Part shown: one piece after another, positions 6,286 through 29,268 of the stretch
How positions within the stretch are numbered: the stretch's first letter is position 1
Layout: every line of letters begins with the position of its first letter
Origin: an uncultured bacterium
GTDB taxonomy: Bacteria; Planctomycetota; Brocadiia; Brocadiales; Scalinduaceae
Direction of reading: 5' to 3'
Assembly (NCBI GenBank): GCA_913055705.1
Contig: CAJXKT010000006.1
Coordinates: 1 to 40,566, forward strand
DNA: 40,566 nucleotides
Position numbers and translations under genes: made by a program
Notes under the pieces: model-generated
Told to the model about the DNA's origin: nothing
Databases searched by the model: none
What the model saw: only the letters and a program-made list of their open reading frames with translations

Positions 6286-7467
6286 TCACTCAGTGTCTTT
6301 GTCTAACTTTTCAATCTTGACTATACCGTAAAGAAATAGATAGGCGATGGCAAGGCCTACTATAAAACCAATTGCAGTTGAGTGAAATGCTATGATTACA
6401 GCTGCTGTCAGGAGCATGACGAACATATCGCTTCTTGTCTTAGTATCTCGTGACGTCATTGCGAGTTCCATACCGGAGAATGTAAGAAGAACTCCGAGGA
6501 CACTTAACGGATAAACAGACAATAACTTAATGGCATAAGCACCAAAGAAAAAGCCGATAATCATTTTAACTATCCCAAGGATAGCTATGCTTCCTCCGGT
6601 CCTGGCTCCGAAACTATACTGCCCGGCCAGGCCTCCGGCACCATGGCACATCGGCATAGCTCCAAACCAGCACCCTATAAGGTTCATCAGACCTACACTG
6701 GTAGATACCCTTCTTACATCAGCACCTTTCTTTGGGAAGAGATCCCAGGAAAGTGCGCATACGGCAATTACTGAGTTCAGGATGGTCAGAGGTATTTGAG
6801 GTATTGCCGCCCGGAATGTACCACTTATAAAGTCATCCGCATTTAAAGTAACAAATTCTGGGATACTTAGTTCATAACTGAATCCCTTGAGAATGTCTGG
6901 TGTTCGTAAAAAGAGAAATATAAAGCCAATTGCAAAGATTACAAGGGCACCGGGAAACTTTTTGCTGAAGAACAGGAATAGGACAAGCAAGCCGCAAAAG
7001 GCTCCTACCGCTATACTGTCAAGACCAAATATAGTGTTGGTATTGGTAACCATTTTAATACCCTTGATAATAAGCAATAAGCCAAGCCCAAGTTGTAACC
7101 CCCTGATAACACTAAGAGGTATGTGTCTGTTTAGAAATACTATCAGGTTTGTTACACCCAGCATAAATACAATTGCGCTTACCACTATTCCGGCAGCTAA
7201 TATCTCATTAAGCGTGAGACCCTCATTGATTGCAATTATGCCTATCGCCTTCATTGGCTGAACGGCAATGGGTATACCAAATATAAAACCGGAGATCAGG
7301 TTGAAAAGTCCGGAGAAGAACAAGGCACTTCCGGCATTCAAACCGCAGACCGTTACCAAACCCACCAGTATGGGAATAAATGTTCCCATGTCGCCTAATG
7401 CCCCTGCAAATTCGTGTCGGTTGAAACGAAAGCCCTTAATATTATTTAATATATTTTTTGTCCACAT
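6286..7467 (-). CDS. MOT1-family molybdate (sulfate-like) transporter
   Basis: Polytopic membrane protein of the MOT1/MFS_MOT1 group, related to SulP transporters but lacking a STAS domain. Known members take up molybdate with high affinity. At 393 residues it has about ten hydrophobic segments and the family hallmarks GALGDMGTFIPI (about 22-33), IPIAVQPMKAIG (about 66-77) and MPMCHGAGGLAGQYSFGARTGG in the second half. The gene sits directly behind a Moco-type riboswitch and an intrinsic terminator, and follows a Mo/W formate dehydrogenase on the same strand. This strongly supports molybdate (or tungstate) rather than sulfate as substrate. The Shine-Dalgarno match is weak. The start ATG lies about 20 bases after the terminator U-tract, so expression requires terminator read-through. 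Confidence 0.9.
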   Translation of the reverse strand: MWTKNILNNIKGFRFNRHEFAGALGDMGTFIPILVGLVTVCGLNAGSALFFSGLFNLISGFIFGIPIAVQPMKAIGIIAINEGLTLNEILAAGIVVSAIVFMLGVTNLIVFLNRHIPLSVIRGLQLGLGLLLIIKGIKMVTNTNTIFGLDSIAVGAFCGLLVLFLFFSKKFPGALVIFAIGFIFLFLRTPDILKGFSYELSIPEFVTLNADDFISGTFRAAIPQIPLTILNSVIAVCALSWDLFPKKGADVRRVSTSVGLMNLIGCWFGAMPMCHGAGGLAGQYSFGARTGGSIAILGIVKMIIGFFFGAYAIKLLSVYPLSVLGVLLTFSGMELAMTSRDTKTRSDMFVMLLTAAVIIAFHSTAIGFIVGLAIAYLFLYGIVKIEKLDKDTE

Positions 7468-7485: not shown

Positions 7486-7533
7486 TAAACAAAAAAACCA
7501 TCGTTCTGTCTTGTAAAAGATAGAACGATGGTT
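7486..7533 (-). terminator. Intrinsic terminator of the riboswitch (expression platform)
   Basis: On the minus strand a perfect 12-bp stem (AACCATCGTTCT / AGAACGATGGTT) with a 14-base loop is followed by a run of Ts, about 20 bases before the MOT1 start codon. Its position between the aptamer and the coding start makes it the likely switch that stops transcription. A competing short hairpin GAAC/GTTC overlaps its 5' arm. I could not resolve the anti-terminator pairing. Confidence 0.85.
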
Positions 7534-7554
7534 CTAGTTAACATTCTCGTTGCC

Positions 7555-7651
7555 ATCTCCTTTCCAAGAAGGGGAGGTATAAGTGTTTCCGCTCATACCC
7601 TATCGGTTATTTATCCATTGAATTCTATTTCAGGTTAAATAACTCGGAGAT
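7555..7651 (-). ncRNA. Molybdenum-cofactor (Moco) riboswitch aptamer
   Basis: Read on the minus strand: P1 is ATCTCC/GGAGAT (7646-7651 with 7555-7560). P2 is GTTATTTA/TAAATAAC (7636-7643 with 7606-7613). The conserved core ATAGGG follows, then a GGTATGAG/CTTATACC stem (7592-7599 with 7576-7583), then CCTCCC, six bases, and GGAAAGGAG closing P1. The order CAGGG-like, hairpin, CCUCCC, N6, GGAAAGG is the same as in the E. coli moaA Moco RNA as I remember it, with identical spacing between CCUCCC and GGAAAGG. The P2 apical loop (22 bases) can form only a short AU-rich stem, so P3 is weak or missing. The aptamer precedes a terminator and a molybdate transporter gene, a coherent genetic setting. 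Confidence 0.88.
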
Positions 7652-7690
7652 ACAAAATTTAGATTGTATTGAATATGTAGGAGTGAACCC

Positions 7691-7724: not shown

Positions 7725-10427
7725 CTACTTGTGCCCGTTTAATTTTTCAATCTTGATTGCACACGACTTGTATTCAGGGATCTTGCATATCGGGTCAAGT
7801 GCATCGTTCGTAAGGAGATTTGTCAAAGCATCACGATTATGGAACGCGAGGAAGGTAATACCCGGCTGTACTCTATCTGTTATGTGTACCTTTACCTCCA
7901 TCTTACCTCTCCTTGAACTGGCGAGAATCCTTTCGCTGTCCGTTATGTTAAACCTTCTGGCATCAAACGGATTTAACTCTAGTGACTCTTCTGGCCATTG
8001 ATTAAATATCGCATTGGATCTTCTCGTCATGGAGCCATTGTTATAATGCTGTCTGCGGCGTCCGGTTGAAAGGATTAACGGATACTTATCATCAGGTACT
8101 TCAGCCGAAGCAATATGCTCCTTAAAATTGAACTTGGCTTTTCCATTCGGCCTGTTAAATTTCTCCTCATACATGATTTGTGTACCAGGATGGTCTAAGC
8201 TAGGGCATGGCCATTGGATTCCGTCCGGATTACATCTTCCATGATTAACACCTGCAAACATCGGTGCAACACTGGCAAGTTCGTCCCATATTTCAGATGG
8301 TGAAGAGTAGTCCATATTTTTTATTCCAAGCGCCTTTGCTACAAGACATATGGTCTCCCAATCCGCTTTGCCACACAATGGATCAATCGCCTTTCGGATC
8401 AGCTGAATTCTTCTTTCACCATTGGTAAATGTACCATCCTTCTCTGCGTGACTTGAGCCGGGAAGGACTACGTGAGCAAACTCTGTAGTGTCCGTTGGAA
8501 GAATATCCTGTACAACAAGAAAGTCCAGTTTCTTAAGGCCGGCTTTTACAAAGTTGACATTGGCATTCGTCATGGCAGGATCTTCACCGAAAATATAGTA
8601 GCCCTTTAACTTGCCTTTATTCATTGCTACGTCCATCTCTGTGCATGTCAGGCCTATCTTGTCATCCAGTTTGGTCTTCCACGCCTTTTCAAACTTCTTC
8701 TGTGCCTTATCATCACCAACCTTCTGATATCCAACAAACGTATTAGGCAGCGCTCCCATATCACACGCCCCCTGTACATTATTCTGCCCACGGGTCGGAT
8801 TGATTCCTACGTTTGATCGTCCAAGATGACCGGTAACTGTGGCAAGATTAGCCAGTGACATAACATTGTATGTACCGGTTGTATGTTCCGTCATTCCAAG
8901 GCTGTATATAATCATTGCTTTATCAGTTGAAGCGTACATTCTGGCCGCCTCAATAATCCTGTCCTTGGCTACACCTGTTATACCTGAAACGTGTTCCGGT
9001 GTATATTTCGCGACACCTTTTTTGAGCTCATTAAACCCTTCTGTGCGTTTCTTTATAAACTCCTTATCCTCAAGTCCTTCTTTCAGGATTACGTGTATAA
9101 TTCCATTCAACAGAGCTATGTTTGTTCCGGGTATCAGATTCAACCACACATCCGCCTTTTCTGCGAGTTGTGTCTTTCTCGGGTCACCTACAATCAGCTT
9201 TGTTCCATTTTTTATGGCGTCTTTTATCTTAAGCCCTACAATCGGGTGTGCTTCATATGGATTAGCGCCTATCACGAATAGTAATTCCGTATCACGAATT
9301 TGATCAAATGAATTAGTCGCGGCGCCACTACCAAAACATGCTGCAAGTCCAGAGACGCTTGCACTGTGGCATACCCTCGCGCAGTTATCAACATTGTTTG
9401 TGCCCATCATTCGGCCAAGCTTCTGGAATATATAGTTCTCTTCATTTGTACATCTTGATGAAGAGAGGAACCCAAGGCTGTCAGGACCGTGCTTCTTCTT
9501 AATCTCTGTGAACTTTTCAGCTATAAGAGAAATTGCCTCGTCCCAGCTGGCCTCTTCCAGTTTGCCATTCTTTCTTATGAGCGGTGTGGTTATTCTGTCT
9601 TTATGATGTATGTGCTCGTAACCAAATCTACCTTTTACACAGAGACTTCCTTTGTCATTAACCGGTGCATCATAGCATGGTGAAATAGAGACTACTTTCT
9701 TGTCTTTTACATTCAAAAAGTAGTTGCAGCCTGTTCCGCAATATGTACAGGTAGTCCTGGTTTTTTCAAATTGCCATGGACGTCCCTTGCCTTTCGCGGA
9801 TAGTTCCTGCAGTGCGCCAACCGGACACGCATCTATACATTGACCGCAAAGTTCACAATCACCCTCTTTGGAGATATTAGAATTGCTCGGGGCGCCAATT
9901 GCCGTAAACCCGTGAGCCTTAAACCCGAGTGCATATGATCCCTGGAGCTCACCGCAGGTACGCGCGCACCTGGTACACATAATACATTTATCTTTGTCCC
10001 ACTCTATAACTCCGTTATTTGGAAGTTCCGGGAATTTTCGAATAGTTTGCTGACTCCATTCCGCATGCACATCAAACTGGTAAGCATAATTTTGGAGTTT
10101 GCAATTACCTGTTTTTTCACAGGTCATACAGTCATTAGGGTGGTTACCTAGTATCAACTTAAGGTTGTTTCTTCGGAGTTCAGCAATGTTATCGCTTTCC
10201 GTCACAACACTCATGCCATCCCAGACAGGAGCGTTGCAAGCTGTCACAGGCCCCAGGTTCCCGTCTACTTCAACAACACACATTCTACATTGTCCAAATG
10301 GCTCTAATAGATTCCAATGACATAAATGTGGAACGTGGATATTGTTTTTCTTAGTAACATTAAGGATGGTTTCACCATCATTTGCTTCATATTCTTTCTG
10401 GTTAATTTGTAATGTAATCTTTTTCAT
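7725..10427 (-). CDS. fdhA: Formate dehydrogenase catalytic subunit with NuoG-like Fe-S N-terminus (Cys form)
   Basis: Large Mo/W-bis-PGD enzyme interconverting formate and CO2. I start it at the ATG six codons inside the track ORF because TCAGGAG lies just before it, giving 900 residues. Domains: [2Fe-2S] ferredoxin with Cys36, 47, 50, 64; a His/Cys3 [4Fe-4S] site (His96, Cys100, 103, 109); two [4Fe-4S] motifs CIMCTRC (148-158) and CELCGQC (191-201); then the molybdopterin domain with its own [4Fe-4S] site (CTYCGTGC from 227, Cys263). The active-site motif CARVCHSAS puts Cys at about 353, where E. coli FdhF has selenocysteine, so this is the Cys form. The C-terminal dinucleotide-binding domain ends the protein. 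A polyferredoxin gene lies upstream and the riboswitch and MOT1 gene downstream. No diaphorase subunit is visible. The electron partner (NAD or ferredoxin) is unknown. Confidence 0.93.
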   Translation of the reverse strand: MKKITLQINQKEYEANDGETILNVTKKNNIHVPHLCHWNLLEPFGQCRMCVVEVDGNLGPVTACNAPVWDGMSVVTESDNIAELRRNNLKLILGNHPNDCMTCEKTGNCKLQNYAYQFDVHAEWSQQTIRKFPELPNNGVIEWDKDKCIMCTRCARTCGELQGSYALGFKAHGFTAIGAPSNSNISKEGDCELCGQCIDACPVGALQELSAKGKGRPWQFEKTRTTCTYCGTGCNYFLNVKDKKVVSISPCYDAPVNDKGSLCVKGRFGYEHIHHKDRITTPLIRKNGKLEEASWDEAISLIAEKFTEIKKKHGPDSLGFLSSSRCTNEENYIFQKLGRMMGTNNVDNCARVCHSASVSGLAACFGSGAATNSFDQIRDTELLFVIGANPYEAHPIVGLKIKDAIKNGTKLIVGDPRKTQLAEKADVWLNLIPGTNIALLNGIIHVILKEGLEDKEFIKKRTEGFNELKKGVAKYTPEHVSGITGVAKDRIIEAARMYASTDKAMIIYSLGMTEHTTGTYNVMSLANLATVTGHLGRSNVGINPTRGQNNVQGACDMGALPNTFVGYQKVGDDKAQKKFEKAWKTKLDDKIGLTCTEMDVAMNKGKLKGYYIFGEDPAMTNANVNFVKAGLKKLDFLVVQDILPTDTTEFAHVVLPGSSHAEKDGTFTNGERRIQLIRKAIDPLCGKADWETICLVAKALGIKNMDYSSPSEIWDELASVAPMFAGVNHGRCNPDGIQWPCPSLDHPGTQIMYEEKFNRPNGKAKFNFKEHIASAEVPDDKYPLILSTGRRRQHYNNGSMTRRSNAIFNQWPEESLELNPFDARRFNITDSERILASSRRGKMEVKVHITDRVQPGITFLAFHNRDALTNLLTNDALDPICKIPEYKSCAIKIEKLNGHK

Positions 10428-10528
10428 GCTTTTCTCCTGAAACAAATCATCTAGCTGTTCAACGTTTATAAAATATGTAAGTTATTTGAGCTACATTTAA
10501 ACTGTCACAATTGAAATTCTTTCATAAA

Positions 10529-10606: not shown

Positions 10607-11059
10607 TTAAGCAGTAACAGCAACCTTCTTTTCAACTTTGTATGTCAGCGCAGAAGTCTTACATGCCTCTACGCATGCCATATCGTCATACCCTTTACAA
10701 TCATCGCAGTTGATGGCAACATTCATTTCTGTTTCTTTAGTGATCGCACCGAAAGGACAAGCATCAATGCATGCCCAACAGCCATTACATTTCTCCTGGT
10801 CTATAACAACGTTACCATCCTCATATTTAGTAATTGCGCCATAATCACATGCCTCCATGCATTTTGGATTTTTGCAATTCTGGCAAACAGTTGCATGTGG
10901 TTTATCTTTTCTGAAACTTATGTTAATCCTTGGAACTGGAGCCGGTTTTTCCAGAGCGGATAAGGCAAAATCCTGTGCCACTGAATGCCTGATAGCACAT
11001 TCAATCATACATCTTTTGCAGGTAACGCAGTTTTTGCTTGTAAATCTTTTCTTTAACAT
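10607..11059 (-). CDS. Polyferredoxin electron-transfer subunit (HycB/CooF-like, four [4Fe-4S] motifs)
   Basis: A 150-residue soluble iron-sulfur protein resembling HycB, HydN and CooF, which shuttle electrons between formate or CO dehydrogenase and a partner. Four Cys clusters are visible: NCVTCKRCMIEC (10-21), VCQNCKNPKCMEAC, KCNGCWACIDACP, and NCDDCKGYDDMACVEAC. No signal peptide is present, so it is cytosolic or docks to a membrane complex. It is upstream of formate dehydrogenase on the same strand with a 179-base gap, suggesting a shared function and perhaps a shared transcript. The ribosome site is a modest GAGAAGA. It could serve another oxidoreductase, but the neighbour makes formate dehydrogenase the leading guess. 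Confidence 0.88.
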   Translation of the reverse strand: MLKKRFTSKNCVTCKRCMIECAIRHSVAQDFALSALEKPAPVPRINISFRKDKPHATVCQNCKNPKCMEACDYGAITKYEDGNVVIDQEKCNGCWACIDACPFGAITKETEMNVAINCDDCKGYDDMACVEACKTSALTYKVEKKVAVTA

Positions 11060-28914: not shown

Positions 28915-29268
28915 GGGGGCGAAAGGTATCGACCGGGTAACTGGATGCAAAAGTTGCACTCTGAGGTGGTCAGGCGGCCTCATAAAAAACCTGACAAAAA
29001 CTTAAATGCTGATAATGAACTAGCATTGGCTGCGTAAAACCGGCCGCGTCTTTTCAATTCTTTCCTGCGGGGCTGAATAGGCGAAAAATAGCAGGATAGT
29101 TAAGCCTTCTTGCTCAAAGGATGCTTGGCGAAACTTTAATTTGAGATAGTTGTTTTGAAGGCCTGTCTGTCGGCATTTAAAACGGCGAAATTAAAAGACT
29201 GACTATGTGTGTAGACGCTTTTGCTGAAATACTTTGGGACGCGGGTTCGACTCCCGCCGCCTCCACCA
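28915..29268 (+). ncRNA. ssrA: Transfer-messenger RNA
   Basis: One-piece tmRNA of about 354 nt. The 5' end GGGGGCGAAAGGTATCGACCGGG and the 3' tRNA-like end GCGGGTTCGACTCCCGCCGCCTCCACCA (quoted in part) are diagnostic, with G-U/GC acceptor pairing and CCA encoded. The tag reading frame ends at TAA (29035-29037). Taking the GCT at 29008 as resume codon gives ADNELALAA, a normal-length tag with the proteolysis signal ALAA. The exact resume codon is inferred from tag length and the usual Ala start. It follows smpB and precedes the receiver gene without a clear terminator. Confidence 0.95.

Follow-up and report, generated by a model that had tools for sequence, protein, structure and literature searches.

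A P3-lacking riboswitch of the Moco family, situated between a formate dehydrogenase gene (fdhA) and a MOT1-type transporter gene, probably attenuates the transcription of MOT1 in uncultured marine anammox bacteria, which are important to the marine nitrogen cycle. From the sequence data, we assign this whole explanation a probability of roughly 0.8. The evidence comes from one stretch of Scalinduaceae DNA analyzed at its full length of 40,566 nt (the window), from the corresponding leaders and loci of related genomes, and from MOT1 loci of other phyla.

A Moco RNA between fdhA and MOT1

The covariance model of the Moco RNA (RF01055) matched the minus strand of the window at 7661-7541 over its full length, scoring 68.9 bits where the gathering score is 36 (E=1e-14 across the whole window), and this was the only copy in the 2.07-Mb genome. 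The covariance search had been proposed in a sequence-only reading of this DNA as a check on its claim of a Moco-type riboswitch, and the result bore the claim out. That reading had placed P1, P2, the core, and a perfect 12-bp terminator before the start codon correctly, coordinates included, but had overlooked the absence of P3. The aptamer (7541-7661; cmscan, model positions 1-135 with the P3 columns deleted) contains P1, P2, a P4 hairpin with a GAAA loop, and the CCUCCC...GGAAAGGAG core; its conserved junction core and the GNRA loop on P4 comprise CUCCGAG, AGGG...GGAAAC...CCUCCC, and UUGGAAAGGAG. The P1 5' strand (AUCUCC, 7646-7651, minus strand) pairs in each of the six compared leaders with 7560-7555, and the P1 3' strand (GGAGAU, 7555-7560, minus strand) doubles as part of an antiterminator. 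Only about 4 bases (CGAU) separate P2 from P4, and the P3 model columns are likewise deleted in L046, L048, and L002. The P2 tetraloop receptor, CCUGAAA/CAAUGG in the window, departs from the consensus (CCUAAG/UAUGG type) and is canonical in L002, from the same order.

The aptamer sits between Mo/W-related genes, fdhA upstream and MOT1 downstream, an arrangement conserved in relatives. MOT1 (6286-7467, minus strand) encodes a 393-aa molybdate/sulfate-type transporter matching PF16983 at 188.7 bits, with two repeats that both exceed the curated cut-off and an invariant PxCHGxGG motif; its nearest relatives belong to Candidatus Scalindua (96% identical in two genomes, 83% in S. sediminis), which places the window in an anammox bacterium of the Scalindua family, order Brocadiales. 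The formate dehydrogenase alpha subunit gene, fdhA (7725-10445, minus strand; TIGR01591, 853 bits), is the upstream neighbor of all six leaders in the same orientation; its listed start is TTG, and an ATG a few codons downstream is likelier. A 4Fe-4S ferredoxin-like protein with Pfam Fer4 domains (10607-11059, minus strand), whose gene also adjoins fdhA in relatives, is likely a partner of FdhA.

The fdhA stop codon lies 64 nt from the aptamer, and a promoter scan of the gap between fdhA and MOT1 returned nothing above chance, so the RNA unit may divide an fdhA-MOT1 transcript; we infer that the two genes are co-transcribed. A palindromic hairpin just past the fdhA stop codon (7725-7670) has counterparts in L161, L162, L164, L165, and L195 and is missing from L163. 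Its sequence varies among close relatives (GGGCGTATTGCAATACGCCC, GGCGAACGGCCGTTCGCC, and others), and it looks like a mobile REP-type element. Elsewhere, the window carries a tmRNA gene (28915-29268, plus strand; RF00023, 186 bits) and a tRNA gene (28383-28300).

Terminator and antiterminator in the MOT1 leader

The 5' arm of an intrinsic terminator (7522-7533, minus strand) forms a perfect 12-bp stem with 7507-7496; the 3' arm and U-run span 7491-7507 on the same strand, with TTTTT at 7495-7491, and MOT1 starts 23 nt past the end of the U-run at 7491. The terminator and leader fold gave z scores of -4.0 to -5.8 against dinucleotide shuffles. An automated terminator scan called no terminator, a miss that we attribute to its stem and loop limits, because beyond a mismatch the stem is extended by an inner stem.

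A competing antiterminator pairs a 5' arm (AGGAGAUGGCAACGA; 7547-7561, minus strand) with 7528-7515 through 14 pairs, and its 3' arm (UCGUUCUAUCUUUU; 7515-7528, minus strand) overlaps the terminator 5' arm. In each of the six leaders, the P1 3' strand and the bases next to it can pair with the terminator 5' arm and the loop side. Over these leaders, 92.9% of antiterminator cells were paired, compared with 40-52% when the arms were slid by 1-3 columns. Pairs were retained through one-sided G-U/G-C, A-U/G-U, and C-G/U-G changes; two-sided compensatory changes were absent among the six leaders because such close relatives vary little. The CTATCT block (7523-7518) was invariant in the six-leader alignment and its inner terminator partner was variable, the pattern expected if the antiterminator holds CTATCT.

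Folding calculations gave a consistent picture across the six leaders. For a transcript ending in the terminator loop, the antiterminator had a probability of 0.80-0.94 and P1 of 0.00-0.04, whereas in the complete transcript P1 reached 0.76-0.99 and the terminator 0.82-0.99. At the decision point, the antiterminator state was more stable than the P1 state by 1.2-4.2 kcal/mol, a modeled difference that ligand binding could overcome. Shuffled versions of the downstream region gripped the P1 3' strand equally well in 1-14 of 200 trials, depending on the leader. A terminator and a mutually exclusive antiterminator that uses P1 are thus present, as judged by folding and pair counts in six leaders.

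Because the antiterminator shares the P1 3' strand and the terminator 5' arm, the layout predicts a transcriptional attenuator that is OFF with cofactor. Without cofactor, the P1 3' strand would pair with the terminator 5' arm, RNA polymerase would read through, and MOT1 would be made. Binding of Moco or its tungsten analogue would keep P1 in the aptamer and release the terminator arm; the terminator would then form and turn MOT1 off, leaving upstream fdhA unaffected. Alternatively, the switch might be ON with cofactor, or the terminator might mainly end the fdhA transcript, with MOT1 driven by its own promoter and the RNA acting as a weak modulator. The short distance to fdhA and the lack of a strong promoter in the gap are compatible with this alternative, as is a relative (G376) that keeps a terminator-like relic although its aptamer is lost. 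However, competition between the P1 3' strand and the terminator 5' arm in six of six leaders is the usual OFF layout, and end-product repression is expected for an importer, which makes the alternative improbable.

The RNA-MOT1 unit in Scalinduaceae and at other MOT1 loci

Among 17 Scalinduaceae genomes, which are incomplete metagenome-assembled genomes, the RNA was present in six, MOT1 in six, and both in five (G000, G379, G382, G387, and G388). The order fdhA-aptamer-terminator-MOT1 was intact in all five of the latter, and the aptamer was intact in all six leaders, that of the more distant G388 included. Together with the covariance match, the terminator, and the conserved antiterminator, this conserved RNA-MOT1 unit supports the earlier suggestion that the riboswitch acts on MOT1.

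Two genomes carry one partner without the other. G384 retains the RNA and the first MOT1 codons and then runs straight into the end of lptF, the rest of MOT1 being gone. G376 retains MOT1 and has lost the aptamer, with an insert of small open reading frames (ORFs) between the terminator-like relic and MOT1. Both could reflect genuine loss; for G384, an assembly error is another possibility. A chimeric contig was considered for G376 (S. arabica, L047) and rejected, since synteny puts MOT1 in its place, with the aptamer lost and the small ORFs inserted. The presence of MOT1 without an aptamer in G376 indicates that the RNA is not indispensable. The insert (L195, 6449-7840) holds ORFs of 80 and 93 aa that resemble a toxin-antitoxin pair by eye; the 93-aa ORF has no NCBIfam match.

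The sequence-only reading had also proposed a survey of other MOT1 leaders. Across 80 MOT1 loci from many phyla, three Scalindua loci included, and the whole genomes surrounding them, the RNA lay directly before MOT1 only in Scalinduaceae, and the idea of a Moco RNA as a general feature of MOT1 leaders was rejected. Genomes of Pelotomaculum and Syntrophomonadaceae with 7-12 Moco RNAs had none at MOT1. Moco-synthesis genes occurred within about 5 kb of 20 of the 80 loci, including loci in distant phyla. In a member of Zixiibacteriota (L067, 192-6143), a weak, degenerate Moco RNA scoring 32.7 bits, below the cut-off, precedes an operon of eight genes in one direction, mobA-mobB-moaA-moaC-MOSC-mogA-moeA-MOT1.

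P3-lacking Moco RNAs were also observed before other genes. In G206, from the same order (L194, 8965-10515), such an RNA (73.4 bits) with a terminator and a similar antiterminator directly precedes an OprO/OprP-type porin gene (Porin_O_P, ATG at about 9178); upstream there is another porin gene of this type. Porin_O_P genes adjoin modABC in G383 and G375 (loci L199 and L201). These arrangements hint at an outer-membrane step of molybdate uptake under the same control, with a possible molybdate/tungstate porin. L003 (1137-1621, minus strand), from a distantly related member of the phylum, has a P3-lacking Moco RNA of 74.4 bits before a small gene of the carboxymuconolactone-decarboxylase family, followed by moaA.

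Exchange with modABC and the substrate of MOT1

Strong ModA-type matches, defined as PF13531 above 175 bits, were found in 9 of the 10 Scalinduaceae genomes that have neither the RNA nor MOT1 (G374, G375, G377, G378, G381, G383, G385, G386, and G389) and in none of the seven that carry the RNA and/or MOT1. The remaining genome, G380 (77% complete), lacked ModA, the RNA, and MOT1 alike. In G377, G378, G381, G383, and G386, modABC lies beside fdhA on the same contig, and ModE-like and Mop-domain proteins precede it there (domains tested in G386). In sister species of the genus Scalindua, the fdhA-adjacent site at which the RNA-MOT1 unit is found is thus taken up by the classical three-gene molybdate importer modABC and its ModE-like regulator; in G389, lptF and fdhA are adjacent with nothing between them. 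In a UvrA tree, six MOT1 genomes form one clade from which G388 stands apart. The ModA/MOT1 labels require two changes on this tree, and the exclusion is accordingly worth about two events instead of sixteen. Resolution of the FdhA tree was insufficient to indicate whether fdhA moved with MOT1.

The exchange at one site and the Moco-synthesis neighbors of MOT1 favor molybdate and/or tungstate as the predicted substrate, whose uptake by MOT1 would replace the ModE-controlled modABC of sister species. The earlier proposal of molybdate as the substrate is strengthened accordingly by the genomic pattern. PF16983 is related to SulP permeases (a weak TIGR00815 match), and its bacterial members are annotated as putative sulfate/molybdate transporters, so one might suppose that MOT1 mainly carries sulfate or another anion and that the RNA was inherited from the fdhA context. 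Such a supposition is hard to reconcile with the exclusion between MOT1 and modABC at the same site, with Moco-synthesis genes adjoining MOT1 in distant phyla, and with an aptamer kept intact as far as G388, and we regard it as very improbable.

Ligand of the P3-lacking aptamer

P3-lacking forms made up 58 of the 176 Moco RNAs described by Regulski et al. in 2008 and tracked tungsten genes in 17 of 19 organisms, a link to the tungsten cofactor (Tuco) that was drawn from gene correlation, not binding (PMC2408646). A P3-lacking RNA beside a molybdate-type transporter in Pelobacter carbinolicus was read as the tungsten-cofactor type in the same work (PMC2408646). These precedents, together with FdhA as the direct neighbor of the RNA, speak for an aptamer that senses Tuco and a MOT1 that mainly takes up tungstate for a tungsten formate dehydrogenase; the Scalindua enzyme could use tungsten. 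However, neither an AOR-type tungsten enzyme (AFOR_N) nor TupB above the cut-off was found in any of the 17 Scalinduaceae genomes, so that, by the published criterion, tungsten use is not indicated. The RNA-bearing and MOT1-type genomes also had no strong ModA/WtpA-like binding protein (SBP_bac_11). Furthermore, anammox nitrite oxidoreductase contains molybdenum and has an orthologue in Scalindua brodae (PMC8387239), which calls for a molybdate importer, and sister species have modABC at the same site. A Tuco-sensing aptamer with tungstate uptake is therefore unlikely, although it is the most serious of the alternatives, and the sequence evidence favors Moco over Tuco as the ligand by about two to one.

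The presence of nitrite oxidoreductase in Scalindua rests on the literature, since an ORF in G382 considered for this enzyme was rejected as a fusion of an FdhA-like protein and NifS. In this ORF (L206, 1-2930, minus strand; G382:C7), a single open frame encodes first a Mo-bisMGD oxidoreductase resembling formate dehydrogenase and then a cysteine desulfurase of the NifS/IscS type. Several relatives have matching frames of comparable length (about 1130-1180 aa). It would be unusual for such an enzyme to carry its own sulfuration partner, if that is what the desulfurase is.

Under Moco sensing, a more specific proposal can be made, namely that the P3-lacking aptamer governs the import of molybdate, not tungstate, in Scalinduaceae that depend on a molybdenum nitrite oxidoreductase and show no tungsten-specific genes. 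We hold this proposal tentatively, at slightly less than even odds. If it is true, the rule that the absence of P3 means a tungsten cofactor fails, and ModE-modABC was swapped as a unit for a single permease under RNA control. The Scalindua RNA also provides a natural setting in which to test P3 as the determinant of molybdenum versus tungsten cofactor specificity.

Comparison with known systems

Moco RNAs ahead of mod and moa genes and terminator-type platforms have already been described. The sequence-only reading had seen in the window a link between the Moco RNA and MOT1; the link is present but not wholly new, as a Moco RNA has been reported in Caldithrix abyssi within a Moco-synthesis locus, where 1130 nt separate it from the downstream PF16983 transporter Cabys_2008 (PMC5317091). 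Relative to the literature searched, the new elements are a direct RNA-MOT1 unit in several species, the antiterminator of this unit, and its exchange with ModE-modABC at a single site. Bacterial MOT1 proteins have been predicted as molybdate transporters in sulfate reducers (PMC5840216), and a 2018 survey, which left MOT1 out of the prokaryotic importers, counted 278 Mo-using bacteria without a known Mo importer (PMC6147048). A riboswitch directly on MOT1 and the exclusion of modABC at the same site together offer independent evidence for bacterial MOT1 as a transporter able to close this gap.

The Scalindua RNA shares with the Moco RNA (RF01055; Regulski et al. 2008) the core, P1/P2/P4/P5, the GAAA tetraloop, a terminator-type expression platform, and a position upstream of Mo metabolism genes. 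It differs from the typical form in lacking P3 and in lying inside an fdhA-MOT1 pair, and its predicted target is a single-gene MOT1 transporter, unlike the usual moa, mod, and molybdoenzyme genes. With the P3-lacking "Tuco-type" RNAs it has in common the missing P3 and the association with a Mo/W transporter, whereas its host genomes have no detected tungsten-specific transporter or AOR. As in Caldithrix abyssi, a Moco RNA is linked to a PF16983 transporter; however, in Scalindua the RNA immediately precedes MOT1 and brings its own terminator, synthesis genes are lacking, and several species share the arrangement. Like the ModE-controlled modABC, the unit occupies the fdhA-adjacent site and would place molybdate import under feedback control, but whereas modABC encodes an ABC transporter regulated by a ModE-type protein that binds DNA, the predicted Scalindua system pairs a single permease with an RNA sensor of the completed cofactor.
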